Shown: positions 4,246 to 22,403 of the stretch, piece by piece
How positions within the stretch are numbered: the stretch's first letter is position 1
Layout: each line of letters begins with the position of its first letter
Source of the DNA: Nanobdellota archaeon
Lineage (GTDB): Archaea > Nanobdellota > Nanobdellia > PEZQ01
Direction of reading: 5' to 3'
DNA: 32,208 nt
Assembly (NCBI GenBank): GCA_018220985.1
Contig: JAAOXS010000016.1
Span: forward strand, 1-32,208
Program-made: the position numbers and the translations under genes
The notes under the pieces: generated by a model
Seen by the model: only the letters and a program-made list of their open reading frames with translations
Databases searched by the model: none
Told to the model about the DNA's origin: nothing

Positions 4246-5883
4246 ATGACTGAAAATCAGCAACCCGTACTTATTTTACCTGAAGGATATCAAAGAATGA
4301 TAGGTAGAGGCGCTCAAGGCGCTAATATTGCAGCAGCTAAAGCTGTTGCGGAAACTGTTAGGACCACTTTAGGTCCTAAAGGAATGGATAAAATGCTTGT
4401 CGATTCTATTGGTGATATTGTTGTTACAAATGATGGTGTTACTATTCTTGAAGAAATGAATATTGAAAATCCTGCTGCTAAAATGATTGTTGAAGTTGCT
4501 AAAACGCAGGACGCGGAAGTTGGTGATGGAACAACTACTGCAGTTGTTATTGCTGGAGAGTTATTAAAGAAAGCTGAGGATTTGCTTGACCAGAATGTTC
4601 ACCCTACAGTGATTGCTAAGGGTTATAATCTTGCTGGTGAGCGCGCTGAAAAATTACTTGAAAAAATAAAAGTTAAGATTGATTTAACTGATAATGTTTC
4701 ACTTAGGAATGTTGCTATGACGGCTATGACTGGTAAAAACGCTGAAACAGATAAAGAAGTTCTTGCTAAAATAGTTGTTAACGCTGTTAAAAGCATTATT
4801 GAAGAAAAAAGCGGGAAACCTTTTATTGAAAATGATAATATTAAAATTGAAAAGAAAAGTGGTGGTAGCGTTCAAGATTCGAAATTGATTAATGGTATTG
4901 TTATTGATAAAGAACGTGTTCATTCTGAAATGCCAAGTGAAGTTAAAAATGCGAAAATATTGTTATTATCTGAAGCGTTGGAAGTTAAGGAAACTGAACG
5001 TAGCACTGAAATTCGAGTTAACACTCCTGACCAATTAAAAGCTTTCATGGATCAAGAGGAGACTTATTTAAAAGATATTGTTAGTAAAGTTAAAGTTACT
5101 GGTGCTAACGTGGTTTTTTGTCAGAAAGGTATTGATGATGTAGCTCAATATTTCCTTGCAAAAGCTAATATTCTCGCTGTAAGAAGAGTTAAGAAAAGCG
5201 ATGTTGAAAAACTTGCTAAAGCAACTGGCGCTAAAATTGTCAGCAATCTTGATGAATCTTCAGTAAAAGATCTTGGTTTTGCTGGCGAAGTTTTTGAGAA
5301 AAAAATTTCTGGTGAAGATATGATGTTTGTGAGCAAGTGTAAGAATCCAAAGGCTGTTACAATTTTTGTTCGCGGCGGGACAGAGCATATTGTTGATGAA
5401 ATTGAAAGGGCTGTTATTGACGCGCTTGGAGATTTGAAAGCGGTTATTGAAGAAGGCACTGTTGTTTATGGTGCTGGCGCTCCTGAAATCGAGCTTGCTC
5501 AAGGTTTGAGAAAGTACGCTCAGAGTTTGAAGGGCAGAGAACAATTAGCGGTTAACAAGTTCGCTGAAGCATTAGAAATCATTCCGAAAACTTTAGCTGA
5601 AAACGCGGGTTTGGATCCTATTGATGTTTTAACAGAGTTAAAAGCGTTGCATGATAATGGAAAGATTAGTTTTGGAATTAACGTGTTCACAGGTAAATCT
5701 GAAGACATGAGCAAGTTAGGCGTTGTTGAACCTTCCAAAATTAAAAGCCAAGCAATTAAATCCGCTACTGAAGTTGCCATGCTCATTCTCCGAATTGATG
5801 ATGTAATTGCTTCAGGTAAGATGAAAGAACCTCCAATGCCTCCGCAAGGTGGTATGGGTGGCGGAATGCCTGGAATGTATTAA
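4246..5883 (+). CDS. thsA: Thermosome subunit (group II chaperonin)
   Basis: [66 protein letters not shown]-type C-terminal tail. Confidence 0.98.
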
Positions 5884-5893
5884 AAACTTATAG

Positions 5894-5925
5894 AAAAAGG
5901 TTTGTAATACCTTTTTTATTTTATT
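5894..5925 (+). terminator. Hairpin plus T-tract downstream of thermosome
   Basis: aaaaaggt (5894-5901) / accttttt (5909-5916), 8-bp perfect arms with a 7-nt loop, followed by a T-rich tract. Confidence 0.55.
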
Positions 5926-5971
5926 TTTTTTTAACAAACTTTTTTAAGTTCCTCAGTGCTAAAAATATATT

Positions 5972-6403
5972 ATGGCGAGGGAAAGTATTAGTACTGAAGT
6001 TAGTGATTTACGACGTGAATTAAGTGAGTTAAATAATCTTATTACTAAAATGGTTGCAACAAACATTAACGTGCAGTCAAAAGTCACTGAGTCTTTAATT
6101 AAAATGGATGATTTAATTAAAGAAGTTAAGGATATGGTTGAATTATTACAAGTCGCTACTGAAATGGAATCAGGGCCAACTGAAATTCACGGTTTTAGTG
6201 ATATGACTTCTTCTTTAAAAAAGTTAAACACTAATGTTGAGTCAATTGATACGAATTTGAAAAAAGTTTACAGGCGATTATTTGTTATGTCGCAATCAAC
6301 TCCGTTAAGTGGTGTGTCTCAAAGAAAGCCTGTTTTTCCTCAAAGTCGTCCAAGTTTACAGTCTCTTCCTGTTAAAGAAAATAAGCTTCCTAAAAAATTA
6401 TGA
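5972..6403 (+). CDS. Coiled-coil protein, possible FlaC/D/E-like accessory of the adjacent pilus-like locus
   Basis: Heptad-like helices (SDLRRELSELNNLITKMV...); 4-bp ATGA overlap with the downstream pilin-like gene. Confidence 0.55.
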   Translation: MARESISTEVSDLRRELSELNNLITKMVATNINVQSKVTESLIKMDDLIKEVKDMVELLQVATEMESGPTEIHGFSDMTSSLKKLNTNVESIDTNLKKVYRRLFVMSQSTPLSGVSQRKPVFPQSRPSLQSLPVKENKLPKKL

Positions 6404-7311
6404 AAAAAGCCCAGTCACAAATACTTGGAGCTGTTTTAATCACAGCTATTGTGATGCTGGTTTCCGGTAGTGCTTTTGTTTGGGGTAAGCCGTTGATTGA
6501 TAAGTCAACTGACAAGTCTAAAGTTGATGGTTTATTATTAAAAATGAGCGAAATTGATTCTGCGATTAAGCAAGCCGCGAGCACGGGCAGTTCGAAAACG
6601 GTTAAGGTTAGACTTCAAGAGCATGATGAATTAAGCGTTTCAAATGATGGGGGGTTAAAATTTAAGTCTTACATTCTTGTTCCAGTTATTTCCACAAAAG
6701 ATTACGCGCCGCTTAATTCGTACGAATTAGCTGTTGAAAACGAGTTGATAGGTGTTGAAACTATTGAAACAGTTAGTGAATCTTTAGGTATTTGCAGTTT
6801 ACCCCATGATGGTGTTGTTAAAAATGCGAGTTTGCTTTTAGAAGGTGAAAATTTTCACGTTGTTGTTTATAACACTAGTAATAGTTATGATTATGATCAT
6901 GTTTGCATAATTAATCACACGAATCAGCCTACAAATGATGAGTGCGCTAATGAGTTTCAAACAATACCAGTTAATGGTGTTGATTATGTTATTCAGCGAA
7001 TTGACAAGAAAGGGGAATTCGTTTATTTTACTGGTGATGAAGTTGAAAACGTGGGTATTATGACGCGGGATGTTCCTGGAGTTATTAGTGGTAAAAGCAG
7101 GGTGTTAAGCAGTACTGAAGGTTTGCTAACAACTTTAGTTCTTAATTATCGTGGTTTAATTGATAATAATGGTGTTATTCATAGAATTATAATTCAATGT
7201 GAAAATAATTGTTTGTCCACTAAGTCTGAGACATTGGTTAAAATAATTCGTTCGGACATTATTAGAACGGGAAGTTCTATAGATACTTATATCAATATTG
7301 GATTAAATTAA
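6400..7311 (+). CDS. Pilin-like protein with class III (prepilin) signal
   Basis: MKKA|QSQILGAVLITAIVMLVSGSAFVWG: short basic leader, KA/Q cleavage-site candidate, then a ~20-residue hydrophobic helix and an extracellular-type domain. Confidence 0.65.
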   Translation: MKKAQSQILGAVLITAIVMLVSGSAFVWGKPLIDKSTDKSKVDGLLLKMSEIDSAIKQAASTGSSKTVKVRLQEHDELSVSNDGGLKFKSYILVPVISTKDYAPLNSYELAVENELIGVETIETVSESLGICSLPHDGVVKNASLLLEGENFHVVVYNTSNSYDYDHVCIINHTNQPTNDECANEFQTIPVNGVDYVIQRIDKKGEFVYFTGDEVENVGIMTRDVPGVISGKSRVLSSTEGLLTTLVLNYRGLIDNNGVIHRIIIQCENNCLSTKSETLVKIIRSDIIRTGSSIDTYINIGLN

Positions 7312-7332
7312 ATTTATAGAAGGGTAGCGGGA

Positions 7333-9225
7333 ATGAAAACCCAGTTAAAAAGTGCGTTAAATAAGGTAGCCGTAGCAAAAAGTAGTGATACAATTTTTCA
7401 ACCAAGTTTTTCAAATGTTTTTTCAAGAATGCGCCGTGCAAAACATGCTCCAAGACCTAAAAAAATTAAGTTTGAAGAAAAACGTTTGCCTCTTCCAAAA
7501 CCTGAACCTGCTAAGCTCCCTGTTAAAGATGAAGTTAAAAAAGATGGTGGTTTCTTTACTAAGAGCGAGTTAAAAGATTTATTAGTTAATCAATTTAAAA
7601 ATTCAAAAACGGAGCCTGAAAAAAAAGTTGAAGAAGATTCTAATGCTAAATCAATAAGTTTAAAGCATTTAACTAATGAAGAAAGCGTTCAAAAAAAGGT
7701 TAGTCAAAGCGAAAAAGTTAATGAAACACAGATAAAGGATGTTGATGAGTCTTTTCCTTTAATCACGCTTGATGTTGAAGGTAAGAAAAAAACATTTGTT
7801 AATGGTAAAATTAAATGGTACGATGAAGACCATGCTTTAAAATATGAGGTTAATGAGCCTAAGCTTAACGAGCAAGAAAGTAAGATTCTTGAAGAGATTA
7901 AATTAATTCTTGAAAGAAAATTGGATGTGCAGTTTAAAGCTGTTAACGTGGATAGTGCTTTCAAGTTTTTACGTGAGAATGTTAATAATATAATCAAAAA
8001 AATTGGTTTAACTTTGAGTGATGAGCAAAGAATGAAGTTTGATTATTTTATTTATCGTGATTTTATTGGTTTAAGCGTTATCGAACCTTTAATGCATGAC
8101 ACAAATATTGAGGATATTTCTTGTGATGGTCCTAACATTCCTATTTTCATTTATCATCGTAATCCCCAGTATGCGGGTATGGAAACGAATTTGATGTTTA
8201 AGAGTGCTGAAGAGTTAGATTCTTTTGTTCTTAAAATTTCTCAGAAAACAGGTAAAACAATAAGTGTTGCTGAACCTTTATTGGATGGCGCTTTGCCTGA
8301 TGGTAGCCGTGTTCAAGCAACTTTTGGCAGTGATATTGCTCGTAGGGGTAGTAATTTTACAATACGTAAGTTCATGAAAGAGCCTATAACTCCAATTCAT
8401 GAAATAAATTTTGCAACTGCTAATGCCGAGTTACTTGCTTATTTGTGGTTAGCTATTGAGAATGGTTTGAGCATTCTTATTTCCGGAGCAACTGCTACTG
8501 GTAAAACCTCTTTCCTGAATGCTATAAGCCTTTTCATTAAAAGGGAAAGTAAAATCGTGTCAATTGAGGATACTCCTGAGCTTAGGCTTCCTCATCCTAA
8601 CTGGGTTCCTGAAGTTGCTCGTAAAGGTTTTGGTAGGGATGCGTATGGAGAGGTTAGCATGTTCGATTTATTAAAAGCGTCTTTACGTCAGAGACCGGAT
8701 TACATTATTGTAGGTGAGGTTCGTGGCAAGGAAGCTAATGTTATGTTTCAGTCAATGGCTACTGGTCACGCAGGTTTAGGTACTTTGCATGCTGACAGTT
8801 TTAGCGCTGTTTATGACCGTTTAACAACTAAGCCTATTGAATTACCTGCTTCTATGATTGAAAATTTGGATATAATCGTTTTCTTGGTCGTTACTAAAAG
8901 GGATAATAAGTATTTACGTAAGGTTAAGGAAATCGTTGAAATTATTGAGTACGATATTGATTCTAATCAATTAGTCACTAACAAAGTTTTTGATTGGAAT
9001 CCGAATAATAATTCTTTCAGAAGTTTTGAAAGCAAATTATTAGATCGTATGAGGGAGAAAATGGGCATTTCTGAGGAGCAAATTCTTGAAGAGATAACGC
9101 ACCGTTCAGAAGTTTTGAAATGGTTGTTCAGTAAAAAAATAATGGAGTATGATAAAATGGCTGATTACATTAAAAGGTATTATCATAAAAAAAATGATTT
9201 GATGAAGGAAGTGCGGGGTGGTTGA
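7333..9225 (+). CDS. Type II/IV secretion system ATPase (GspE/VirB11/FlaI/TadA family)
   Basis: Walker A ISGATATGKTSFLNAI, SIEDTPELRLPHPNW, RQRPDYIIVGEVRGKEANVMFQSMATGHAGLGTLHADS; long charged N-terminal extension. Confidence 0.95.
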   Translation: MKTQLKSALNKVAVAKSSDTIFQPSFSNVFSRMRRAKHAPRPKKIKFEEKRLPLPKPEPAKLPVKDEVKKDGGFFTKSELKDLLVNQFKNSKTEPEKKVEEDSNAKSISLKHLTNEESVQKKVSQSEKVNETQIKDVDESFPLITLDVEGKKKTFVNGKIKWYDEDHALKYEVNEPKLNEQESKILEEIKLILERKLDVQFKAVNVDSAFKFLRENVNNIIKKIGLTLSDEQRMKFDYFIYRDFIGLSVIEPLMHDTNIEDISCDGPNIPIFIYHRNPQYAGMETNLMFKSAEELDSFVLKISQKTGKTISVAEPLLDGALPDGSRVQATFGSDIARRGSNFTIRKFMKEPITPIHEINFATANAELLAYLWLAIENGLSILISGATATGKTSFLNAISLFIKRESKIVSIEDTPELRLPHPNWVPEVARKGFGRDAYGEVSMFDLLKASLRQRPDYIIVGEVRGKEANVMFQSMATGHAGLGTLHADSFSAVYDRLTTKPIELPASMIENLDIIVFLVVTKRDNKYLRKVKEIVEIIEYDIDSNQLVTNKVFDWNPNNNSFRSFESKLLDRMREKMGISEEQILEEITHRSEVLKWLFSKKIMEYDKMADYIKRYYHKKNDLMKEVRGG

Positions 9226-9227
9226 AA

Positions 9228-10097
9228 ATGGCGAGTTTTGACATAATATCTTACAGGCTTTTCGGGAAAATGGTTAAAAAATATTCTAAATCGTTCGCGC
9301 CTGTTGATACGCAATTAAAAAAAGCAGGTATGGATTATACGCTTAATGAATGGTTGTCAATGACTGTTTTAGCGTGCGTGGTTGCTTTTCCTCTTGTTAG
9401 CGTGTTCTTATTTTTTATGATGTTTTTAGTTACGGGTTTATTCATAGACGCGTTTCCTTTTGCTTTGATTGGCGGTTTTATAGTATCAGGTTTTGTTGCA
9501 GGTTTCATGTATTATTATCCTTCACAAGTTGCTGGTTCACGTAAAAAAAAGTTGGAGAACTCGTTGCATTTCGCAACTATTTATATGGCAACTCTTGCTG
9601 AAACAGGTATTCCTCCTTACAAAATTTTTAACGTGCTTGAAAAGTTCGATGAGTTCGGAGAGATTAGTCGTATTTCTAAAACAATTGTTAGAAACATGGA
9701 AGTTTTCGGACTTGATTTTAATGACGCTCTTGAAAAAGCAGCTGATAATTCCCCTCTCAAAGAATTAAAAGACTTATTTTGGGGTATGCGTGCAACAATC
9801 ACTACTGGTGGTGATTTATCAGGTTTTTTATCCCAGCGTTCGAAAGCGCTGACTAATGATTATCGAAGACGGCTTGAAGGTTATGTTAAAACATTATCAT
9901 TATTTTTGGAGATTTACATAACAGTTGTTATTGTAGGCTCAGTGTTCATGCTCGTGCTTACAACAATAATGTCCATCCTTGGAGGTTCAGGTGACCAAAT
10001 TCAATTAATCCAAGTAATACTTGTCACCATTGGCCTGCCAACAGTGGCTGTTGTGTTTATTATTTTACTTAAAACAATATCCCCTACTGAGGTGTAA
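9228..10097 (+). CDS. T2SF/TadC-like integral membrane platform protein (single T2SF domain)
   Basis: LENSLHFATIYMATLAETGIPPYKIFNVLEKFDEFGEISRISKTIVRNMEVFGLDFNDALEKAADNSPLKELKDLFWGMRATITTGGDLSGFL T2SF pattern plus several TM segments. Confidence 0.87.
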   Translation: MASFDIISYRLFGKMVKKYSKSFAPVDTQLKKAGMDYTLNEWLSMTVLACVVAFPLVSVFLFFMMFLVTGLFIDAFPFALIGGFIVSGFVAGFMYYYPSQVAGSRKKKLENSLHFATIYMATLAETGIPPYKIFNVLEKFDEFGEISRISKTIVRNMEVFGLDFNDALEKAADNSPLKELKDLFWGMRATITTGGDLSGFLSQRSKALTNDYRRRLEGYVKTLSLFLEIYITVVIVGSVFMLVLTTIMSILGGSGDQIQLIQVILVTIGLPTVAVVFIILLKTISPTEV

Positions 10098-10103
10098 TCA
10101 ACT

Positions 10104-11216
10104 TTGAAAGATACGACAACGATATTCATTGTTTCAATGTCAGCAGCAGTTCTCATTTGCTTGCCACTTCTAATCATTATTTGGCCGAATTTTATTTACA
10201 TAAGTTATTTGATGATTTTATTTCTTGGATTGGGTGTTGGTCCTTTAACTGCGTATAATTATTTGCAAAACTTAAGGTATTCTAATATGGAAAAACAATT
10301 TCCAGGTTTTTTGCAGGAGTTAGCTGAGGCTAAAAGAGCTGGTATGAATTTGCCGAATTCCATTATTAACGCTGCTAAAATCAATTACGGCGCGTTAAGC
10401 CCTGAAGTTAAAAAAATGTCTAATCAATTATCTTGGGGCGTGCCTCTTCCTCGTGTTCTTAGAATGTTTCAAACTAGGACTAAGAAAAGTCCTTACATTT
10501 ATCGTTCTATGGCTATTATTCTTGAAAGTTATCATAGTGGGGGTAACATTGCTAAAACTCTTGAAGCGATTAGTCATAGTATTACCACTATTAAAGAGGT
10601 TGAAGCGAACAGGCAGTCAATTCTTAATGAGCAGGTCGTGATTATTTACGCGATTCATTTTATTTTTGTTGGAATAATTGTTGCTATGTATACTATAATG
10701 CTCCCTCTTCTCGCAGTGCAGGGCGCGCCTGGTTCAAGTTTGTTCGGTTCCGCAAGTTCAGCTCCTTCAACTGAGTATTTTAAAGTCTTGTTTTTTTTGA
10801 CTCTTGCTATTCAAAGTATTTGTAATGGTTTTGTTGCAGGTGAAGCTAAAGAAGGTAGTGTTTCAGCTGGTTTAAAGCATACGATTATCATGCTTTCTGT
10901 TGCAATTATTGGTTATACTTCTTTTATTTTACCAACACAGGTCAATCTTAATGTTAATTTGAAGGATAATGAGAATTATATTAATGATGATTTCGAAGTT
11001 TTCGGCGAGTTAGAAGAGGAAGGTAAGCGTATTGAAGGTGCTTCCATAATCATTGATTTAGCTGATGAGGAGGAAGTTACGACAAGTGATACTAATGGTG
11101 AGTATCACGTGCGCATTAAGGCTCCTTCAGTGTCAGGTATTTATACTATTAGTGTTACCGCCATTTATGAAAACACGGATTTAACAGTTACTAAGGAAGT
11201 TTTAGTTATGGATTAG
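10104..11216 (+). CDS. Second T2SF/TadB-like platform protein with C-terminal Ig/CarboxypepD-reg-like domain
   Basis: FPGFLQELAEAKRAGMNLPNSIINAAKINYGALSPEVKKMSNQLSWGVPLPRVLRMF T2SF pattern, TM helices, then FEVFGELEEEGKRIEGASIIIDLADEEEVTTSDTNGEYHVRIKAPSVSGIYTISVTAIYENTDLTVTKEVLV. TTG start. Confidence 0.83.
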   Translation: MKDTTTIFIVSMSAAVLICLPLLIIIWPNFIYISYLMILFLGLGVGPLTAYNYLQNLRYSNMEKQFPGFLQELAEAKRAGMNLPNSIINAAKINYGALSPEVKKMSNQLSWGVPLPRVLRMFQTRTKKSPYIYRSMAIILESYHSGGNIAKTLEAISHSITTIKEVEANRQSILNEQVVIIYAIHFIFVGIIVAMYTIMLPLLAVQGAPGSSLFGSASSAPSTEYFKVLFFLTLAIQSICNGFVAGEAKEGSVSAGLKHTIIMLSVAIIGYTSFILPTQVNLNVNLKDNENYINDDFEVFGELEEEGKRIEGASIIIDLADEEEVTTSDTNGEYHVRIKAPSVSGIYTISVTAIYENTDLTVTKEVLVMD

Positions 11217-11249
11217 TCAAGTTTTTATGTTTTTAATTTGTTTATTTTC

Positions 11250-12011
11250 ATGATGGTGAAGGGTCAAATCAATATTGATTTAATTTTTGGTTATTTAGCA
11301 TTCATCCTATTCGTATGGTATTTTAGTGGGTACATGGGTGATTTGTTCACGCCTTTCTTGGATTATGCTAAAGTTGAGGCGTTGGAGAAGAAAACTTTGC
11401 TTAATCGTAATGAAGTAGCTTCTTTCATTAATGTTAATAATATTCAAGATGTTTGCAATCTCACTTTGGAAGGTAAGTATGGTAATGAAGTTGCGTATTC
11501 TATTCGTGGTTTTAACCTGTTCAAAAAGGATTATTCTTTTTTTTCTCCTGATAATACTGCGGGAGGGTTAGTTTTTGTTAGGGATTATTCTTCTTTTACA
11601 ATTCTTGCGGGCACGAATTCAACTGATTTTAATTCAACTATTCAGTTTACGATTCCTTCAACTCTTGTAAGAGTGGATGGCGTTAATAATTCTGTTTTTG
11701 ATTTTTATAATCAGTCCATTGATGATTATGGTAATATTGTTTTCACGGTTGGTTTGCACGCGAGTTCAAGTGATAGCTTGGTTGGTTATTCGTTTCATAC
11801 GGGTTTTAAGGATGATGCTTTTTTAATGGTTGAAATTTTTAATAATGATTATTCTAATCTTTGGATTGGTGAAGTGCACGCTTATGATTCGTGCTCTTCG
11901 GGCAGTGAGAATGATATGTTAACTTTTCACAATTTTTTTAAAAGAATTGGTTATGGCAGTGATGAATTTTATGCTTTAATAAGTATTAGCACTTGGTGGG
12001 AGAATGCGTAA
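11250..12011 (+). CDS. Pilin-like protein, extracellular C-terminal domain, unknown function
   Basis: MMVKG|QINIDLIFGYLAFILFVWYFSGYMG: class III-like leader and hydrophobic helix; in the co-directional pilus-like locus. Confidence 0.55.
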   Translation: MMVKGQINIDLIFGYLAFILFVWYFSGYMGDLFTPFLDYAKVEALEKKTLLNRNEVASFINVNNIQDVCNLTLEGKYGNEVAYSIRGFNLFKKDYSFFSPDNTAGGLVFVRDYSSFTILAGTNSTDFNSTIQFTIPSTLVRVDGVNNSVFDFYNQSIDDYGNIVFTVGLHASSSDSLVGYSFHTGFKDDAFLMVEIFNNDYSNLWIGEVHAYDSCSSGSENDMLTFHNFFKRIGYGSDEFYALISISTWWENA

Positions 12012-13026
12012 GGGTTTTATTAAAACAACTGAAGCTATTATCGCGATTTTGTTAGTTTTCACTTTAGTTTCTTATTTAGCTCAGCGAGTTAGCGCTCCAT
12101 TATCCGAAGTTGAAACTGATACTACAAGTATTCAGGATTCCGTTCTTGACATGTTAGTTCCTGAGTTAAGAAATGATTTGAAAAATTGTGATTTAAGCCG
12201 TGTTCAGTATTTAACTGATGCTTTTAAGCCAGGTGATATGGATAGTAAAATAGAAATAACTCAAATAAGTGAGGTTAAAGTTATTTCAGAGCATAACATT
12301 TCTTCGCAGAACGTGTCGTTTACGTACAATTTTCCTGATTACGTAGACAGGCGAAGTGCGCTTATTTATTCTTCTTTGAAAAATTTTGATGTTATGATTA
12401 ATTGGGTTTGGTTTAGTGTTCCAATAATTATTCAAAATAGTTTGGTAACTCGTAAGGATTATGATGTTGCTTTTTCAAATATTAATTTATCAAAAAGTAA
12501 TGTTGTTAACACATCTATTGGTTTTTATTGGAATAATAAAGAAACTTTGATAAATCTTACGAGTTTTGATGATAATAATTATTTTTCACTTGTTAATATT
12601 AGTGTTAGAATTCCAAAGTTGGTTGCTGGTGAAACTTCAACAGGTTATCTCGTTTTCGCTGTGAACAGCACTTCTTTTGAACAAGTTTATTCTCCTCTTG
12701 GAGCTAATGAAATCTCTTATGATGTTATGTCTGTTCAAGACATTAATCGTGGTGATGTTTTTTTCGAGTTAAAAAACGTTTATGAGTTTAAGAATCTTTT
12801 TTTAGAATACAAAATAGGTTCCAGTGTTAATCGTTCATACACTAATATTTCTTCTTTTAATAATACAGGGGTTTCTTTTATCGTGTACTGGAGTGATTTG
12901 AAGCCGTGCACGATTTTTCGTTATGAGCAACCTCCTGTATCAACATTTTATAATACTAAAAAAATGTTTTATTATGATACGTCAACTATAATACTTGAAT
13001 TGCAAATGTGGTATCCATGGGTGTAA
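12004..13026 (+). CDS. Pilin-like protein with large extracellular domain
   Basis: MRKG|FIKTTEAIIAILLVFTLVSYLAQ: basic leader then hydrophobic helix with an acidic residue near its start; overlaps flanking genes. Confidence 0.58.
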   Translation: MRKGFIKTTEAIIAILLVFTLVSYLAQRVSAPLSEVETDTTSIQDSVLDMLVPELRNDLKNCDLSRVQYLTDAFKPGDMDSKIEITQISEVKVISEHNISSQNVSFTYNFPDYVDRRSALIYSSLKNFDVMINWVWFSVPIIIQNSLVTRKDYDVAFSNINLSKSNVVNTSIGFYWNNKETLINLTSFDDNNYFSLVNISVRIPKLVAGETSTGYLVFAVNSTSFEQVYSPLGANEISYDVMSVQDINRGDVFFELKNVYEFKNLFLEYKIGSSVNRSYTNISSFNNTGVSFIVYWSDLKPCTIFRYEQPPVSTFYNTKKMFYYDTSTIILELQMWYPWV

Positions 13027-16000
13027 AAGGTCAGTTTTTCGTGATTTCAACAATAATAATAGTTCTTGCAGTTTCGAGTACGTTAGCTTATTTGTTATTC
13101 CCTTACGGTTTAAGCGTTAAAGAAATCAATCGTGTTTCCAATTCTTTAATCACTGCTAAAAATTTTGTTCTAACTTTAGATGAGGGTAATAGTCTTCTCA
13201 GCGAATGGGAAGAGCCTTTGCTTGATAATAAGTTAGAAATTTTGATTAGTAATTCCAATTCGTCAGATGTTGAAGGTTTGTTCAGCGTGGTTGTTGAATT
13301 AGAAAGTGTTATTCCCCAATCCATTCGCGTCTTGTTTGATGGTAACATTATTCCTTCAAGTTATCATAATTCTATTTCGGGTAAGGAATTATTATTTTTT
13401 GAAAGTTCGATTCCAGCGCTTAGTGATAAATTGCTTAAAGTGTATTATTCTTCAGAAAACGTTTCTTATAAAAAAAATGATGTTAGTGATGTAATCCTGT
13501 TTGATAATTCAACTAAATCAGTTATTACTCGTTTTTACACTGCTAAAATAGACGTGAATAATGGCGGAGTAATCGAGTCTATCATTAATGAACGAACAGG
13601 TAATGAACTTGTAGGTTCTTCAAATGGTTTTTTCAACTTTAATTTTTTAAGCGAGAATCAGGATTCTAATAATTTTTCATTAATAAATTGGGATACGTGG
13701 AAGACGAGTATTTCTCAAATTGTTAGTTTCAATTTATCAAATGATTATGATATTAATGTTGAAGTTGTTTACGAATTCTTCAATAATCATATAATTATTC
13801 GTTTTGTTCCAAAAAGTATTGGTTCAAGTTATAAAGAATTCTCTGTTAGCGTTCACCCGAATTGTGTTCATGATTGGACTGTTGAAAGTTCTAATAATTC
13901 AGTTATAACAAGTTTTTGTTCTAATACGTCAAGTTTCATTAATAAGAAAACAGGAGAGCTATTATCATTATATTCTTCTTCTGAATCTTTAGCGTTTTTA
14001 ACTCCTTCAAGAGATGCTTGGGCGAAGGATATTACTTTTATTGATTTAACACAATCAGCTTTAGCGAATCAGGAGGGTTTATTGTTTAATTTCACTTATG
14101 ATGATTTAACAAATATTAGCAGTGTTGAATTAGTTACTTTAATTGATTATGGTAATATTAATTCCGATTTTGGTTTATTGTTTAAAAAATATTTTCTTGA
14201 TTTTAATAGTGTTCAGGACGCTTCAGTTCTTAGCGTTAAAGAATCAAGTTTTTCAAGAACTCTTGAGTCAACAATTTTTCTTGAAGGTGCTTCCATTTTC
14301 ACTCAAGCTTCTTTTTCAGAGGGCGTTTTTGAAAAGGATGTAGGATTGTTTGATTGGTATAAGCAGTTTTGGAAAGTAACCTCTTTTGAAATTAATGAAC
14401 GTATTGGCGTGGACAGGGTTAATGAATTGGTTAGTTATTCTTTTAATGATTTTTTTACGGATTATTTTGCTACGGATAAGTTCGGTGTTGAAGTTCCTTC
14501 AACAGTTATTGATTTTGGTAGTTATAAAAAAATTTATTTTTTGGTTAATGTCAGTGCACGTTCTTCCGAACAATTTTTGGTGTATAGGGCGAATAATTCT
14601 TTAACACCTATTAAGTTAGGTAAGAATAATTTAGTAATGCAAGATGATAGCATTTTATTTTTTAATGATTTTTTTGACAGGGTGAATATTAGTTTAGTTG
14701 ATAATACTGTAACTGACTTGTCAGTTAATAATTCTGTTATTAGTGGTGTCATGAATGATTTTAGCATTAGCGTTAATAACGAGTTTAAAAGTTTATCAAA
14801 CAACGATTTTCAAGTTGTTAACACCAGTGTTACTAATAATAATTTATTCAGTCAAGTCAAACAAGTTTTACAATTAAAAATTGATAATGACATATTTGTT
14901 GAAAGCGAGTATTCTTTTTTTAATGATTATTTCTTGATTAAGCGTGTTTTCGTGGACAATTCCAGTTTCAGTTTTATTGGTGATAATAATTTGTTTTGGG
15001 GTAGTAATACAACGGTTTTCCCAATTGTTAATAACACGAATATGAGTAAAGTATTTTATGAAGGCGCTTGGAAAGATGTTCATTGCCCATCACCCCAAAT
15101 TAGTATCGGACCAAGTGATGGTGAGTATTTTAGTGTTATGTATTGGAATGTTGAAAATTTTTTTATGAGTTCTTTTGCCAAAGTTGATGATGATTCTGAT
15201 TTGTCAAATGTTGGTTTTTGTTTAGGTTATGGTTATGATACTCGTCGTCAAAGACCTTTTTGGAGTCAAATGGGTTATTATGGTGTTGCTGGTTTAGAGG
15301 TTGGTTTTGTTTTTGGTGGTGGTAGTAGGGATTACGCAGGTAATTTTTCAAAAAGTTTTTACGATAAATTTTATAATCCTTTAAGCATTTTTAAGGTTCA
15401 GGATTATAATACTTACACTAATCATTTTGATAATTCTTTAAAATTTGTTGTAAGTAATGATGCTGTTTTCGATTTGGTTAATCATCCTGTTGAGTTAGAT
15501 TTAGTTGGGTTGCCTGGTTCGCCAGGTTCTTTGCAAGTTTCTAATAATAATGAGTTATTAAACAGTGCTTTGGTTAATACTGTTTTTTCCAATTTTATTT
15601 TTAATAATAATGTTAAGAATTTTGATGAAAGCACGCCGGTTAAGTATGCTTTGTACAATCCTGTTAATGATGAGTTTAATGTTTCTGTTGAGTTTAAAGG
15701 AAGTTCTAATGTTGTCGTAAATTATTCTATTACGAATCCTGAAGGTTTTGTTGTTGAGTTAGGTTCTTATAATGATTCTAAAAATTTTGAGGTGAGTAAT
15801 GCTTCAAGTGGTGTTTACGTTTTCGAATTCTTGTCTAATGGTACTGTTTCTGCCCGTTCTTCTTTTAATATTAATTCAACTCTCACTCAAGGTTGTTTAT
15901 TGGCTGACAAATTTGGTTTCCAGTTTAATCAGTTGTTCTTGTTTTACGTTCCTAAAAGTTCAAGTTCTTTAAGTTTTGATTTGGATAGTCCTGGCACGGG

Positions 16001-17036
16001 TTCGATTTGGGAGTATTCCATTTTTGATGAAGATATGAATTATGTTAGTAGTAATATTTTCGCGCAAGGTAATAAAGTAAATGTTGTTTACAATTTTCAA
16101 CCTTTGAAGGGTGGAACTTTTTTCTGGGTTAGTTTTAATTACACAACACCTGCTAACCCCATCAGTTGGCTTACTGTTAGCTTAAATGATGGTGTGTTGA
16201 ATTGTGTTGGAAGTTCTTTAAATAATTGGATTAATTATTATTCTCCTAAAGTTAGTGTTTTAACTTTTCCTGATTTGCCTTCTAGCGCGGTTTTAGATTT
16301 TAACGTTTTAACAAATGATTATTTTACTCAAAGTGAGAGTTTTAGTTCTGATTTGTCTTGGAATAGTGTTGCAAAAAGTGTTGATTCTGGTTTATTATTT
16401 TTTGATTATGATGATTTAATTTTGCGAACAAGCAGTTCTTCAAATTGGTTGAGTTCTTGGAAGACTAATTCTTTTTCCGGTTTTTCTAATGTTTTAATTG
16501 TTGAAAATGGTGTTTTAAGAAATGTTGTTAGCGCGAGTAGTGATGTTTTTAATTATTTTTTCGTAAATTATTTGAATAAAGATTTTTTCAAAGTTTTATT
16601 AACTAATTATTCTTTTAGTAATTCTCCATTAACCATTAGTTTAGCTGGTGAAATCGGTGGTGATGCTGATTTCTGGTATAAGTTTTATGGTTATCCTGAA
16701 GAATTAATAACTGGCACGCACTCTATTAATTTTGAGGATGTTAAGTGCATTAATGATTTCACTTTTTTCGGGAAGAAAGATTCTAATTATGTTTTAGCAA
16801 TTATTGTTCCTTGTAATTCATTGAACGTTGGCAATGACGTTTTTGAAGTGTCATCTAATAGTTTGAGTTTTAATTTAACAATGATTAAGGATAATGTTTT
16901 TTACGTTAAAATGTTAGAAGATTATAATTGGGAGCGCGTTGAAGAGTTCATAAAATCTTTTTCAAGTGTTAAAAAATCTTCTTCAAAAATAGTTTTTGAC
17001 TGGAATTATTACAGTGAAGATTTAATTATCAACTAA
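13017..17036 (+). CDS. Giant (about 1340 aa) pilin-like cell-surface protein
   Basis: MGVKG|QFFVISTIIIVLAVSSTLAYLLF leader and helix, followed by a >1250-aa beta-rich, N-x-S/T-sequon-rich ectodomain. ORF is uninterrupted; the ORF track gives start 13008. Confidence 0.62.
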   Translation: MGVKGQFFVISTIIIVLAVSSTLAYLLFPYGLSVKEINRVSNSLITAKNFVLTLDEGNSLLSEWEEPLLDNKLEILISNSNSSDVEGLFSVVVELESVIPQSIRVLFDGNIIPSSYHNSISGKELLFFESSIPALSDKLLKVYYSSENVSYKKNDVSDVILFDNSTKSVITRFYTAKIDVNNGGVIESIINERTGNELVGSSNGFFNFNFLSENQDSNNFSLINWDTWKTSISQIVSFNLSNDYDINVEVVYEFFNNHIIIRFVPKSIGSSYKEFSVSVHPNCVHDWTVESSNNSVITSFCSNTSSFINKKTGELLSLYSSSESLAFLTPSRDAWAKDITFIDLTQSALANQEGLLFNFTYDDLTNISSVELVTLIDYGNINSDFGLLFKKYFLDFNSVQDASVLSVKESSFSRTLESTIFLEGASIFTQASFSEGVFEKDVGLFDWYKQFWKVTSFEINERIGVDRVNELVSYSFNDFFTDYFATDKFGVEVPSTVIDFGSYKKIYFLVNVSARSSEQFLVYRANNSLTPIKLGKNNLVMQDDSILFFNDFFDRVNISLVDNTVTDLSVNNSVISGVMNDFSISVNNEFKSLSNNDFQVVNTSVTNNNLFSQVKQVLQLKIDNDIFVESEYSFFNDYFLIKRVFVDNSSFSFIGDNNLFWGSNTTVFPIVNNTNMSKVFYEGAWKDVHCPSPQISIGPSDGEYFSVMYWNVENFFMSSFAKVDDDSDLSNVGFCLGYGYDTRRQRPFWSQMGYYGVAGLEVGFVFGGGSRDYAGNFSKSFYDKFYNPLSIFKVQDYNTYTNHFDNSLKFVVSNDAVFDLVNHPVELDLVGLPGSPGSLQVSNNNELLNSALVNTVFSNFIFNNNVKNFDESTPVKYALYNPVNDEFNVSVEFKGSSNVVVNYSITNPEGFVVELGSYNDSKNFEVSNASSGVYVFEFLSNGTVSARSSFNINSTLTQGCLLADKFGFQFNQLFLFYVPKSSSSLSFDLDSPGTGSIWEYSIFDEDMNYVSSNIFAQGNKVNVVYNFQPLKGGTFFWVSFNYTTPANPISWLTVSLNDGVLNCVGSSLNNWINYYSPKVSVLTFPDLPSSAVLDFNVLTNDYFTQSESFSSDLSWNSVAKSVDSGLLFFDYDDLILRTSSSSNWLSSWKTNSFSGFSNVLIVENGVLRNVVSASSDVFNYFFVNYLNKDFFKVLLTNYSFSNSPLTISLAGEIGGDADFWYKFYGYPEELITGTHSINFEDVKCINDFTFFGKKDSNYVLAIIVPCNSLNVGNDVFEVSSNSLSFNLTMIKDNVFYVKMLEDYNWERVEEFIKSFSSVKKSSSKIVFDWNYYSEDLIIN

Positions 17037-17068: not shown

Positions 17069-18208
17069 TCAATTAATCAAAAAATTTATTTCTTCTTTAT
17101 CTAAATCAAATGTTTCTAATTCTTGTTTTGAAAAAGTTCTTAGTAATGGCACGTAATATTTTCTCACTGATTTCTTTGAAGCGTGCAATTTTTCACCAAG
17201 CTTCTCAGTTATTGAATCCATTTTCGCGCGTTTGCTTCGTGTTATAAACATTTTTTTGAATAATTCAGGATAGCGTGCTTGGCTTCCGTTTAAAGAATTT
17301 ATACTTGATAATAATAATCTCTGATAATACGCAAAACGCCAGTATTGTCTTCTAAGTATTCTACCTCCAAAAACGTCTGCTTGCGCGAGTGTTAAATAAT
17401 TGTTCAAACTCGCGTTATAATATAGTAAATTTTCACTAAACCATTTAGTTAATTCATTAATATCTGCTTCCGAGTCATTAAGCTCTTTAAGTGCTTGAAC
17501 AAAATTTTGTGAAGTTAACGCGTTATGAACCGTGTTTTTAACATTTTGTTTTTTTCGTCTACTACTTAACATTTTCAAATTTTTTGTAATAACGCCGCCA
17601 GCATAGTGTAATGTGTGAATGTCTGTTATCACTGAGCGAAAGTCATTATCTTGTATTATTTTGTTTAATGCTTCTTCATCATAACTTGATTTTTCTATTT
17701 GCAACATTTTTTTTAAAAAAATTATTTTTTTTTGATGGGTTGATGATTTAACTTCAAGTCCTAAAACGTGTTTTCTTAGTTTCGAAATTTTTGAGTCCCA
17801 ATAATCTCGCGCAGTTAATATTATCGGATGTTTTGTAATGCTTATCGTTTTAATAATTGCGTCAAGCGCACCTCTATCTGTTCTTCCTAAACAATCTATT
17901 TCATCAATTAGTATTATTTTTTTGTTTCCAAAAATGCTTGCTGTTGTAGCCATGTTTTTCAAGTTTTCTTCAATCATTTTTTTGGAACGTTGTGTGCTCG
18001 CGTTTAATTCTATTATTTCATAACCTTGCGCTTTTGCAAACGTTATTGGCAGTAATGTTTTTCCAATTCCTATTTCTCCCCACAGAAGCAGTGCGTTTTT
18101 TTTTTCTTTTTTGTATTCTAGTACGAATTTTAAAAATCTTTTTTTAGTATCTTCACTAATAACTAATTCGTCAACTGTTTTCGGCTGGTGTTTTATTGTC
18201 CATATCAT
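17069..18208 (-). CDS. rfcL: Replication factor C large subunit
   Basis: IKHQPKTVDELV, LLLWGEIGIGKT Walker A, IELNAST, LIDEIDCLGRTDRGAL; adjacent to rfcS. Confidence 0.93.
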   Translation of the reverse strand: MIWTIKHQPKTVDELVISEDTKKRFLKFVLEYKKEKKNALLLWGEIGIGKTLLPITFAKAQGYEIIELNASTQRSKKMIEENLKNMATTASIFGNKKIILIDEIDCLGRTDRGALDAIIKTISITKHPIILTARDYWDSKISKLRKHVLGLEVKSSTHQKKIIFLKKMLQIEKSSYDEEALNKIIQDNDFRSVITDIHTLHYAGGVITKNLKMLSSRRKKQNVKNTVHNALTSQNFVQALKELNDSEADINELTKWFSENLLYYNASLNNYLTLAQADVFGGRILRRQYWRFAYYQRLLLSSINSLNGSQARYPELFKKMFITRSKRAKMDSITEKLGEKLHASKKSVRKYYVPLLRTFSKQELETFDLDKEEINFLIN

Positions 18209-19152
18209 TTCATCATTAAGGTTATACTTGCAAGAAGTGCTTGTAATTGTATGAATTCATCACTTCCTTCTATTAGTCTGAATTCTGTTTCGCCTATTAG
18301 TTTTAATAATTCCATTTTTTTGTTTTCTTCAAGTTTAATGTCAAAAACTCGTTGTGATAATTGTTTTAGAATGTCAACTGCGGGAAGTCCTTGTTCCAGC
18401 ATTATTTTCATCAATTCGTTTCGCGCTTTTAAGAAATCCCCATCACGGCAAAGTAATAATACATTTGTTAATTGTTTTGGCTGAGCGTAATTTGCAGCTT
18501 CGTAAACAGCGTTTAAATCAACTGTTTTATCAATCGTTGATGATGTTTGCAGTAAGTTAACTGAACGCCTGCCATCTCCACCAGTTATTTCGTGTATTGC
18601 GTTAAGAGCGTCTTCGCTTATAATTATTTTTTCAGATTGGCTTATTCGTTTTAAGTCTTGTATTAGTTCTTCTTTTTCCAATGGTTTGAACCTGAATATT
18701 GCACACCTGCTTTGTATTGGGTCTAATATTTTTGACGAATAATTGCAGGATAAAATGAATCTGCAAGTTCTCGAGTATTTTTCCATTGTTCTTCTTAACG
18801 CTTGCTGCGCGTCGCGCGTTAATGAGTCTGCTTCGTCAAGCATTATGATTTTGAAATCGTGATTTCCAAGGGGTCTGGTTCTTGCAAAATCTTTTACTTT
18901 TACGCGCACAACATCTATTCCTCTTTCATCTGATGCGTTTAGTTCTAAGAAATTGTTTTTCCATTGTTTCCCGTACAGCATTTTCGCAATTATTAGTGCT
19001 GAAGTTGTTTTTCCCACGCCAGCAGGTCCTGCGAAAAGTAAGTGAGGCATTGCTTTGCTTTGCGTTAATCCTTTCAGTCTTGGAAGTATGTGTTTCTGAC
19101 CTGCCATTTCATCAAAAGTTTGCGGTCTGTATTTTTCAGCCCAGATTAGCAT
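18205..19152 (-). CDS. rfcS: Replication factor C small subunit
   Basis: MLIWAEKYRPQTFDEMAGQKHILPRLKG, FAGPAGVGKTTSAL, LELNASDERGIDVVR, MLDEADSLTRDAQQALRRTMEKYS, SCNYSSKILDPIQSRC. Start moved from 19188 to the conserved MLIWAEKYRP. Confidence 0.97.
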   Translation of the reverse strand: MLIWAEKYRPQTFDEMAGQKHILPRLKGLTQSKAMPHLLFAGPAGVGKTTSALIIAKMLYGKQWKNNFLELNASDERGIDVVRVKVKDFARTRPLGNHDFKIIMLDEADSLTRDAQQALRRTMEKYSRTCRFILSCNYSSKILDPIQSRCAIFRFKPLEKEELIQDLKRISQSEKIIISEDALNAIHEITGGDGRRSVNLLQTSSTIDKTVDLNAVYEAANYAQPKQLTNVLLLCRDGDFLKARNELMKIMLEQGLPAVDILKQLSQRVFDIKLEENKKMELLKLIGETEFRLIEGSDEFIQLQALLASITLMMK

Positions 19153-19246
19153 AGTGTTTTTTTCAAAGAAAGTTTTGTTATTAAACATTATTGTAAACAG
19201 TCCAATAACAAAATCATTATATACTTCTCAAGCTTGTTTTTTGTTT

Positions 19247-19810: not shown

Positions 19811-20392
19811 ATGGAAGATGAAAAAATAATTCATGACGTTACAGTTCAGAACATTGTCGCTTCTGTAAACTTATTTGTTGCAATACCTCTTGAGAAGGTT
19901 AGCGCTAAAATAAAAAATACTGAATATGATCCTGAGCAATTCCCAGGACTCGTGTTTAGGATTAGAGATCCTAAGGTTACAGCTTTGCTTTTCAGTTCAG
20001 GTAAAGTTGTTTGCACAGGTGCTAAACTACGTGGAGATATTGATATTGCTATTCAAAGAATCACTGAAGAATTAAAAATTGTTGATGTTCATGTTACTAA
20101 AAAACCTGAAATAACTGTTCAGAACATTGTCGCTTCTGGAGATATTCATATGCGTTTGAATTTAAACCAGTTAGTTTTTGATTTGAAATACTCTGAGTAC
20201 GAGCCAGAACAGTTCCCAGGACTTGTTTACAAGTTACCTCATAGCCATATTACTTTTCTTTTATTTGGGACTGGAAAAATAGTGTGCACAGGCGCAGTAA
20301 CTATTAAAGAAATAAATGAAGCGGTTACATCATTAATTAAGAATTTAAACGAAATCAAAAATGACCCAAATAAAGAGGGTGAAATTAAATGA
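19811..20392 (+). CDS. tbp: TATA-box-binding protein (two TBP repeats)
   Basis: VTVQNIVASVNL...EYDPEQFPGLVFRI...ALLFSSGKVVCTGAK repeated as ITVQNIVASGDI...EYEPEQFPGLVYKL...FLLFGTGKIVCTGAV. Confidence 0.98.
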   Translation: MEDEKIIHDVTVQNIVASVNLFVAIPLEKVSAKIKNTEYDPEQFPGLVFRIRDPKVTALLFSSGKVVCTGAKLRGDIDIAIQRITEELKIVDVHVTKKPEITVQNIVASGDIHMRLNLNQLVFDLKYSEYEPEQFPGLVYKLPHSHITFLLFGTGKIVCTGAVTIKEINEAVTSLIKNLNEIKNDPNKEGEIK

Positions 20393-22403
20393 GTACGCTA
20401 ATTTAATAGAGGAATTTCTCCGCAAGTCTTATGTTAAGAAAGACGTTTTAAGAGTTACGAGTGAAGGTAAGCAAAGTATTATTATTGATTTTTTTGTTCT
20501 CGACAAGTTCTCCCCTGAATTGGCTGATTTTGTTTTATCCCAACCTAAGCAGGCTTTGAAAAGTTTTAAAAATGGGATTTCCAGTGTTGATTTGACGGAC
20601 AGTAAATTGAACGTTAGGTTTACAAATATTCCTCACAGTTCTTTTATTAAAATTCGTGATATTCGTAGTGAGCACTTAGGCAGTTTAATCGCTATTGAAG
20701 GTCAAATAAGGACTTGTAGTGATATTCGTCCTGTTGCTAAGGAAATTGTTTATTCTTGTTCTGCTTGCGCTAATGAAATTCGCGTTAAGCAAGATCAAAT
20801 GAAGCAAGAGAAGCCTGAGCAGTGTCCTGGTTGCGCGCGTAAAACGAGTTTTAAAATTCTGCGCCAAGTGTTAATTGATACTGCTCACATAACTATTGAA
20901 GAATCTCCCGAAACTTTAGAGGGTGGTGATCAACCTAAGCGTTTGAAATCTTTTATTGAGGATGATTTGGTTTCCCCTAAACGTGAGAGGGATTTTATTC
21001 CTGGTAATAAAGCTCGTTTAATTGGCATTCTTAAAGAGTTTCCTGTTATCCTTCGCATGGGCGGGCAGAGTACGCGTTATGATTTAATTCTTGAAGTTAA
21101 TAACGTTGAACCTATTGAAAGAGAGTTTGAAGCATTGGATATTAGTGATGAAGATGAAGTTAAGATTTTGGAGTTAGCTAAGGATAAAAAAATTTATGAT
21201 AGGATTTTCAGTTCTATTGCCCCAACAGTTCTTGGTTATGATGAGATTAAGCAGTCTATTGCTTTGCAAATTTTTGGAGGCGTTCGTAAAGTTAAATCTG
21301 ATGAAACAGCTGTTCGTGGGGATGTTCATATTTTATTAATTGGCGACCCTGGTGTTGGTAAGTCTATGATGTTAACGTATGTTAATAAGCTCGCCCCGAA
21401 ATCCGTTTACGTTACTGGTAAAGGTACAAGTGCTGCTGGTCTTACTGCAACAGTTACTCGTGATGAGATTACGAAAGATTGGATTCTTGAAGCTGGAGCT
21501 TTAGTTCTTGCCAACAAAGGTATTGCAATTATTGATGAGTTAGATAAAATGGGTCATGAGGATAGGGTTTCAATGCATGAAGCAATGGCTCAGCAAACAG
21601 TGACTATTAATAAAGCGAATATTCACGCAACTCTTAATGCGCGTGCTGGCGTGCTGGCAGCTGCTAATCCTAAACTAGGTAGGTTTGATCCTTACAACGT
21701 TATTCATGAGCAAATCAATTTACCTCCTACTTTGATTAATCGTTTTGATTTAATTTTTCCTATTAGGGATATTCCTGATGTTAAGAAAGATGAAATGATT
21801 GCGCGTCACATTTTGGAAACGCATACTTCTCCGCAAGCGCAACTGGATGTTATTGATAAAAAATTATTAAGAAAGTATATTGCGTACGCTAAACAAAATG
21901 CTAATCCGCAACTTACGAGCGCTGCGAATAATGAGATTATGAAGTTTTACGTTAAGTTACGTAATAAGAAAAGTTTAGAGCCTGAAAAGTTGCGTCCCAT
22001 CCCAATTTCCGCACGTCAGCTTGAATCCCTTATCAGGTTAGCTGAAGCTTCTGCGCGTATTCGTTTAAGTAATAAAGTTACTAAGAATGATGCGTTGCGC
22101 GCTATTGAGTTGTTGCGTTTTAGTATGAGCCAAGTAGGTATGGATCCTGAGACTGGAGAGTTTGACATTGATAGGTTGATTACGGGTATTTCTTCCACTC
22201 AAAGGAATAAGTTAATTACTATGCAGAACATTTTGAAGCAGTTGGAGGAAGAAATTGGTGAGAATATTCCTGTTGATTCAATTATTCAAGCAGCTCAATC
22301 TCAAGGTATTGATGAAGCGAAAGCTAATGAATTGTTAAGTAAGATGGCTCGTGAGGGTGATGTTTATTCTCCTCGTCATGGCGTGGTTAAACGTATGAAG
22401 TAG
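20361..22403 (+). CDS. mcm: Replicative DNA helicase MCM
   Basis: Zinc finger CSAC...CPGC, Walker A LLIGDPGVGKSMML, KGTSAAGLTATVTRDE, AIIDELDKMGHEDR, INRFDLIFPIRD arginine finger. True start may be GTG 20379 rather than ATG 20361. Confidence 0.97.
   Translation: MTQIKRVKLNEYANLIEEFLRKSYVKKDVLRVTSEGKQSIIIDFFVLDKFSPELADFVLSQPKQALKSFKNGISSVDLTDSKLNVRFTNIPHSSFIKIRDIRSEHLGSLIAIEGQIRTCSDIRPVAKEIVYSCSACANEIRVKQDQMKQEKPEQCPGCARKTSFKILRQVLIDTAHITIEESPETLEGGDQPKRLKSFIEDDLVSPKRERDFIPGNKARLIGILKEFPVILRMGGQSTRYDLILEVNNVEPIEREFEALDISDEDEVKILELAKDKKIYDRIFSSIAPTVLGYDEIKQSIALQIFGGVRKVKSDETAVRGDVHILLIGDPGVGKSMMLTYVNKLAPKSVYVTGKGTSAAGLTATVTRDEITKDWILEAGALVLANKGIAIIDELDKMGHEDRVSMHEAMAQQTVTINKANIHATLNARAGVLAAANPKLGRFDPYNVIHEQINLPPTLINRFDLIFPIRDIPDVKKDEMIARHILETHTSPQAQLDVIDKKLLRKYIAYAKQNANPQLTSAANNEIMKFYVKLRNKKSLEPEKLRPIPISARQLESLIRLAEASARIRLSNKVTKNDALRAIELLRFSMSQVGMDPETGEFDIDRLITGISSTQRNKLITMQNILKQLEEEIGENIPVDSIIQAAQSQGIDEAKANELLSKMAREGDVYSPRHGVVKRMK

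Follow-up and report, generated by a model that had tools for sequence, protein, structure and literature searches.

The window analyzed here is a stretch of 32,208 nucleotides from a Nanobdellota archaeon (GenBank assembly GCA_018220985.1, contig JAAOXS010000016.1, positions 1 to 32,208 of the forward strand). It carries a block of eight co-directional open reading frames at 5972-17036 (+ strand) that very probably constitutes a DPANN operon for an adhesive type IV pilus (T4P), belonging to a conserved locus reported by Hamm et al. (2024, PMC11291902) and being gene-by-gene kin of the haloarchaeal pilB-pilC family. All eight reading frames and their coordinates were confirmed (Table 1). They encode a coiled-coil protein (cc), a pilin-like protein (pilinA), a GspE/TadA-type secretion ATPase, two adjacent membrane platform proteins with a single T2SSF domain each (plat1 and plat2) and three further leader-bearing proteins (pB, pC and big), as a preliminary description of this DNA had listed them. 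The spacing is operon-like, with genes overlapping or separated by gaps of ~21 bp at most. The same description had placed the platform proteins nearer to TadB/TadC than to FlaJ and had suggested an undescribed machine; we likewise found a locus of pilus/Tad type that has a split platform and no archaellum genes, but neither the TadB/TadC affinity nor the undescribed status survived the comparisons below.

Besides T2SSE, the ATPase matches PilB3_C weakly. Its best match in the PDB is 2OAP (405 bits), a type II secretion system protein that we take to be A. fulgidus GspE; FlaI scored 292 bits and CpaF 142 bits. The top curated model is FlaI, at 417 bits vs the 550 required, and the top plasmid-borne relative is a haloarchaeal T4P ATPase. 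On these sequence comparisons, the ATPase appears to be nearest to archaeal PilB-type proteins. In related pilus ATPases from other genomes, inserts of ~430-520 amino acids occur at two sites (T414 and T477 of the query). In the four that were scanned (L068, L070, L072 and L073) the inserts are inteins (Intein_splicing, LAGLIDADG_3).

In profile alignments, plat1 aligned with residues 35-337 (probability 99.2) and plat2 with residues 455-689 (probability 98.2) of a fused haloarchaeal platform of 701 amino acids. The two T2SSF halves of an archaeal platform are thus both present and collinear, encoded by two genes. Against one Rhizobium Tad system, the sole appreciable platform match was plat2 with TadB (85.7). 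We therefore consider the halves archaeal. The NCBIfam platform matches were halves of ArlJ/FlaJ, UpsF and BasF; plat1 had no match in the PDB by sequence. Split archaeal platforms are already known. EpdJ and EpdK of Methanococcus form one, and both are essential (PMC4371748); two tadC-like genes are found in Makarova clade 1 and in many clade 2 loci; the Epd/Tad platform pair has been attributed to gene fission (Denise et al., 2019).

The FlaI model and the ArlJ matches of the platform halves would also suit an archaellum-like or otherwise rotating filament that has lost its accessory genes. We regard this as extremely unlikely. The platform is split, the pilins appear to be homologous to those of the haloarchaeal pilB-pilC locus, and neither ArlH (best 57 of 215 bits) nor an archaellin rose above cut-off in the genome, which measures 661 kb and is 84% complete, so that genome-wide absences are not final. 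Within the block, no FlaH, FlaF, FlaG or prepilin peptidase was found by Pfam or NCBIfam, as previously noted; for FlaF and FlaG the search was confined to the block. A genome-wide search did find a prepilin peptidase elsewhere (Peptidase_A24, 299 amino acids; G000:C23:43911-44237).

The AlphaFold model of plat2 (mean predicted local distance difference test, pLDDT, 85.7) ends in an immunoglobulin (Ig)-like beta sandwich at residues 280-369, where pLDDT is ~79-91. Foldseek matches of this domain include intimin, macroglobulin and CARDB domains, and a profile search matched it to the MpAFP Ig repeat (2e-7). The domain is present in all 22 long plat2 proteins that were aligned. Judged by length, 21 of 72 loci encode a plat2 with room for it (at least 360 amino acids); the remaining plat2 proteins (287-347 amino acids, plus two fragments) lack room for the domain or for most of it. 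When the membrane helices are counted starting at the T2SSF domain, which is cytoplasmic, the Ig-like domain is predicted to be extracytoplasmic. Such a domain on the second platform half is possibly new.

The preliminary description had proposed a synteny comparison across related genomes, and the gene order proved to be conserved. In G001, the sole genome of the same family found, the order is thermosome, coiled coil, (PilA pilins), pilinA, ATPase, plat1, plat2, pB, pC, big and replication factor C (RFC), whole or largely, and it recurs, whole or in large part, in many genomes of the same class. Among named genomes, 80 loci with the same core were recovered with the ATPase alignment as query (a single ATPase sequence had given no match); they are labelled Nanoarchaeota, Aenigmatarchaeota, Nanohaloarchaea, Woesearchaeota, "Altiarchaeota" and others. 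Both platform genes occur in 72 of the 80 loci, as separate genes and in the same order in 72/72 and adjacent in 71. A thermosome gene stands at 33/80 of these sampled DPANN loci, and rfcL is on the opposite strand in 17/80. PilA is variable: relatives with the same gene order have it inside the block or go without. Since the order is kept across dozens of genomes, a chance origin of the block is excluded. The block is conserved DPANN machinery, for which vertical descent would most simply account. A new kind of surface machine of the window's lineage is very unlikely and in its strict sense already refuted: the Ig-like domain of plat2 and a pilin of 1342 amino acids are unusual, but the order is conserved across many named DPANN genomes and DPANN loci of this kind were published in 2024 (PMC11291902).

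Three loci with other labels, L143 and L149 (CAJWSY01, labelled Chloroflexi) and L092 (JAPDJV01, labelled Thermoproteota), are DPANN-type pilus loci and are probably mis-binned or mislabelled. In one relative (L054, reverse-complement 6926-8602), two apparently unrelated genes lie between the ATPase and plat1.

The cc protein and the four pilin-like proteins match no curated family above cut-off in Pfam or NCBIfam. We compared the leaders in about 80 loci, taking K-[GAS] followed by a hydrophobic stretch as class III-like. The class III-like leaders reported for the block are present and are kept in the orthologues. PilA leaders read K-G↓I (the arrow marks the predicted cleavage position) and lack an acidic residue in 57/61. 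The pilinA leader is K-[GA]↓Q across loci, and so is that of pB, which has an acidic residue among its first residues in 36/37, mostly at +5 or +6. The acidic residue of pC (Glu) is found in 27/27, and big has K-[GSA]↓QFF with an acidic residue in 0/20. By a regular-expression count, which is a rough classifier, the acidic positions were 5 then 6 in 34/58 loci and 5-6-none in 16. As haloarchaeal reference we used Salinibaculum (L161), in which the ATPase and platform genes are followed by DUF7287, DUF7288, DUF7266 and DUF7289. In hhalign, pilinA picked the DUF7289 protein (probability 93.6, E 2e-7). Among the four candidates pC picked DUF7288 moderately (E 3.5e-4, probability 37) and pB picked the DUF7287 gene weakly (E 0.013). 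PF23958 (DUF7287) was matched by 11 of 21 pB family members (best 9e-6, the individual matches shown falling under the Pfam cut-off), and the pB of the window itself had no match to it. Through this comparison, likely pilin partners can be named for the pilus ATPases of DPANN; for one ATPase clade, the pilin partners in nanoarchaea could not be identified earlier (Makarova et al., 2016).

The downstream pilin triple is also found in Nanohaloarchaea, and its large member differs by lineage: it is the second gene (~550-600 amino acids) in Nanohaloarchaea and the third (900-1342 amino acids) in the window's lineage. The acidic pattern of the trio (near +5, near +6, absent) together with a third pilin of 1342 amino acids is possibly new. 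Against G001, identity falls from 62-66% for the ATPase and platform proteins to 31-42% for pB, pC and big. At 31%, big is lowest and is the fastest-evolving gene of the block. The drop supports a role of the trio at the filament tip. In bacteria, filaments of this superfamily start from a tip complex that has a Glu5-lacking pilin as its cap (PMC10191384), and TadEFG-type minor pilin trios form functional tips in Myxococcus (PMC12075869); on these grounds pB, pC and big may prime the filament, with big exposed. In the model of a big orthologue, a long helix at the N-terminus leads into beta domains. The best Foldseek matches of this model were carbohydrate-active enzymes whose beta domains are large (rhamnogalacturonan lyase at E 6e-9, besides alpha-mannosidases and beta-galactosidases). 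TM-scores were ~0.3 at most, the root mean square deviation was very large and the model is of low confidence, so that the matches give no more than a hint of a glycan-binding-like fold.

How DPANN archaea grip their hosts is an open question, for which T4P are a leading candidate. A DNA-uptake (competence) pilus feeding a nucleotide-poor symbiont is unlikely, though it would be compatible with adhesion. Natural transformation in archaea requires type IV-like pili, among them the split-platform Epd pilus (PMC10133366), and an import of DNA through pili has been suggested for DPANN (PMC9563170); however, none of the genes in the block was recognized as serving DNA uptake, and the large, fast-evolving big suits adhesion better. 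The comparison of related loci singles out big, which changes fastest among the operon's genes, as the first candidate for host specificity.

No PilA-type pilin gene is found inside this copy of the block. Several relatives, close ones included, have PilA-type pilins there. The window's genome encodes two such pilins elsewhere, of 162 and 160 amino acids on contigs C22 and C13, which score 112 and 104 bits against the profile of the relatives' in-block PilA. In H. volcanii, pilB3-C3 works with PilA pilins encoded elsewhere, and by analogy the window's genome probably provides its major pilins in trans. Protein secretion of the type II/Tad-like kind, with a short pseudopilus expelling large exoproteins from the cell, would draw on an ATPase, a platform and minor pilins common to secretion systems and pili, and it would fit the size of big and a block lacking a major pilin gene. 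It is nonetheless quite improbable, given the PilA-type pilins just described, in the block of close relatives and elsewhere in this genome, and the pilin leader retained by big, which makes it look like a filament subunit rather than free cargo. Directly upstream of a stand-alone PilA gene of the window's genome lies a gene for a 180-residue protein with a signal-like N-terminus (L066 2068-2610, - strand). In three Nanoarchaeota/Woesearchaeota pilus loci (L105, L146 and L150), PilA-family genes of 615-620 codons adjoin ordinary PilA genes of 173-179 codons.

Homologues of cc occur in 34 loci of named genomes. No hydrophobic segment was found in 35/35 proteins of the family (19-residue mean hydropathy at most 1.21), for which reason cc is probably cytoplasmic. 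The coiled-coil component of a halobacterial system has likewise been placed in the cytoplasm (Makarova et al.). An identification of cc as FlaC was rejected, since FlaC_arch matched no better than at E 0.86 and was absent from the matches of the family, and in the PDB only generic coiled coils were matched. We argue for a cytoplasmic location of a protein whose DPANN counterparts were proposed by Hamm et al. (2024, PMC11291902) to resemble viral attachment proteins.

For an adhesive pilus, assembly could proceed as follows. The prepilin peptidase of C23 would trim the leaders of the PilA major pilins (C22 and C13), pilinA, pB, pC and big. The proteins pB, pC and big would start the filament and form its tip, with big as the exposed cap meeting host or surface. 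The ATPase would drive the plat1/plat2 platform, PilA subunits being added from below, while the Ig-like domain of plat2 would sit outside the membrane around the base and cc would act as a cytoplasmic scaffold or regulator. A more specific version of this is possible but rather doubtful: that a TadEFG/GspIJK-like three-pilin tip (acidic near +5, near +6, none) was inherited with the haloarchaeal-type pilus, that in the window's lineage its cap has grown into a fast-evolving, possibly glycan-binding host adhesin of 900-1342 amino acids, and that the platform has gained an extracytoplasmic Ig-like collar.

Several points weigh against the adhesive-pilus account. Direct homology of pB, pC and big to TadE/F/G was rejected, since neither profile alignment nor Pfam gave any; in profile alignments the Rhizobium TadE/G-family proteins matched none of the block's pilins. 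The model of the big orthologue is of low confidence (pLDDT 67, predicted TM-score 0.38). In other lineages the large pilin is the second gene and the third is only ~100-220 amino acids long; a tip adhesin role of big may hold for the window's lineage alone. This copy of the block lacks PilA, and its link to the PilA genes rests on relatives. In the literature we found no experiments on a DPANN pilus of this type, genetic tests included. As for novelty, the preliminary description had named close matches to a characterised archaeal T4P or Tad system of identical gene order as what would refute it; as far as description goes, such a system is known.

Table 1. Positions of the pilus genes, of neighbouring genes and of insert-bearing ATPases (window coordinates unless a locus is named).
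Feature	Position	Strand	Size	Remarks
cc, soluble coiled-coil protein	5972..6403	+	143 aa	kept between thermosome and pilins
pilinA, class III prepilin-like minor pilin	6400..7311	+	303 aa	KA↓Q leader; haloarchaeal DUF7289 counterpart
PilB/FlaI/TadA-type secretion ATPase	7333..9225	+	630 aa	T2SSE 2e-31
plat1, N-terminal half of membrane platform	9222..10097	+	291 aa	T2SSF 8e-15
plat2, C-terminal half of membrane platform	10104..11216	+	370 aa	T2SSF 1e-15
Ig-like beta-sandwich, plat2 C-terminus (residues 280-369)	10941..11210	+		AlphaFold, Foldseek, profile; predicted extracytoplasmic
pB, minor pilin, acidic residue at mature position 5	11238..12011	+	257 aa	likely DUF7287 counterpart
pC, minor pilin, Glu near position 6	12004..13026	+	340 aa	likely DUF7288 counterpart
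big, very large pilin-like protein	13008..17036	+	1342 aa	K-G↓QFF leader without acidic residue
Thermosome subunit, upstream neighbour (context, outside pilus)	4246..5883	+		NCBIfam thermosome 798 bits
RFC large and small subunit genes, downstream neighbours (context)	17069..19188	-		NCBIfam 258 (cut-off 280) and 455 bits
Insert-bearing ATPases of other genomes	L068 2-3271; L069 306-3899; L070 7551-10523 (-); L071 4589-7555; L072 6587-9712 (-); L073 5491-8511

Beyond the RFC genes, TBP and MCM genes (window 19811-22403) complete a replication/transcription neighbourhood. Elsewhere in the genome, a second ATPase is accompanied by two separate platform genes (L009 7353-16153; G000:C15:31352-40152). 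Close to it lie four genes for KaiC-like ATPases, of which one is on the + and three are on the - strand. The C15 set may be the second locus of Hamm et al. (2024). A third secretion-ATPase match, on C23, is a PIN-KH/PINA-type ATPase and was rejected as a pilus motor.

Two conserved pilus loci with CpaF, TadC, FlaF/PilA filament proteins, coiled-coil proteins and GroEL have been reported in cluster 2 DPANN (Hamm et al., 2024, PMC11291902); DPANN Tad-like clusters (PMC9563170) and Nanoarchaeota T4P systems (PMC6142677) have been described as well. The DPANN locus of Hamm et al. shares with the window an ATPase, TadC, filament proteins and a coiled-coil gene beside a chaperonin gene (all at 4246-11216 here, and present in named DPANN relatives too), and by this content the block fits their Locus 1. 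Their Locus 1 contains PilA, whereas the block has none (we treat PilA as variable); they compare the coiled-coil proteins with viral attachment proteins, whereas the cc family has no membrane or signal segment in 35/35; and neither the Ig-like domain of plat2 nor the minor-pilin trio comes up in the text consulted. The Epd pilus of Methanococcus maripaludis (EpdL, EpdJ, EpdK), likened here by description and not by sequence, also has one ATPase, two platform proteins, both needed for piliation, and KGQ-type leaders (PMC4371748); it differs in its dedicated EppA peptidase and short major pilins. The archaellum (FlaI/FlaJ/FlaH) shares ATPase and platform homology, but the window's genome has no archaellin or ArlH above cut-off and its platform is split.

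Bacterial Tad/Flp systems resemble the block in having one ATPase, two single-domain platform proteins and three minor pilins. They differ in that the window's platform halves are closer to archaeal ones, the halves come in the opposite order if TadB corresponds to the C-terminal one, and none of secretin, RcpC, TadZ and TadD is encoded in the block. The haloarchaeal pilB-pilC operons (Salinibaculum; compare Makarova clades 2 and 4C/4F) likewise have an ATPase, a platform and then minor pilins. Their platform is one fused protein of 701 amino acids lacking the Ig-like extension, their DUF7289 pilin is the last gene whereas pilinA precedes the ATPase, and no counterpart of big was detected in that operon. 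For the pilin genes the likeness to Tad is one of plan (order and acidic pattern) and not of demonstrated descent. Judged from the sequence comparisons, the pilus is best filed with the haloarchaeal-type T4P.

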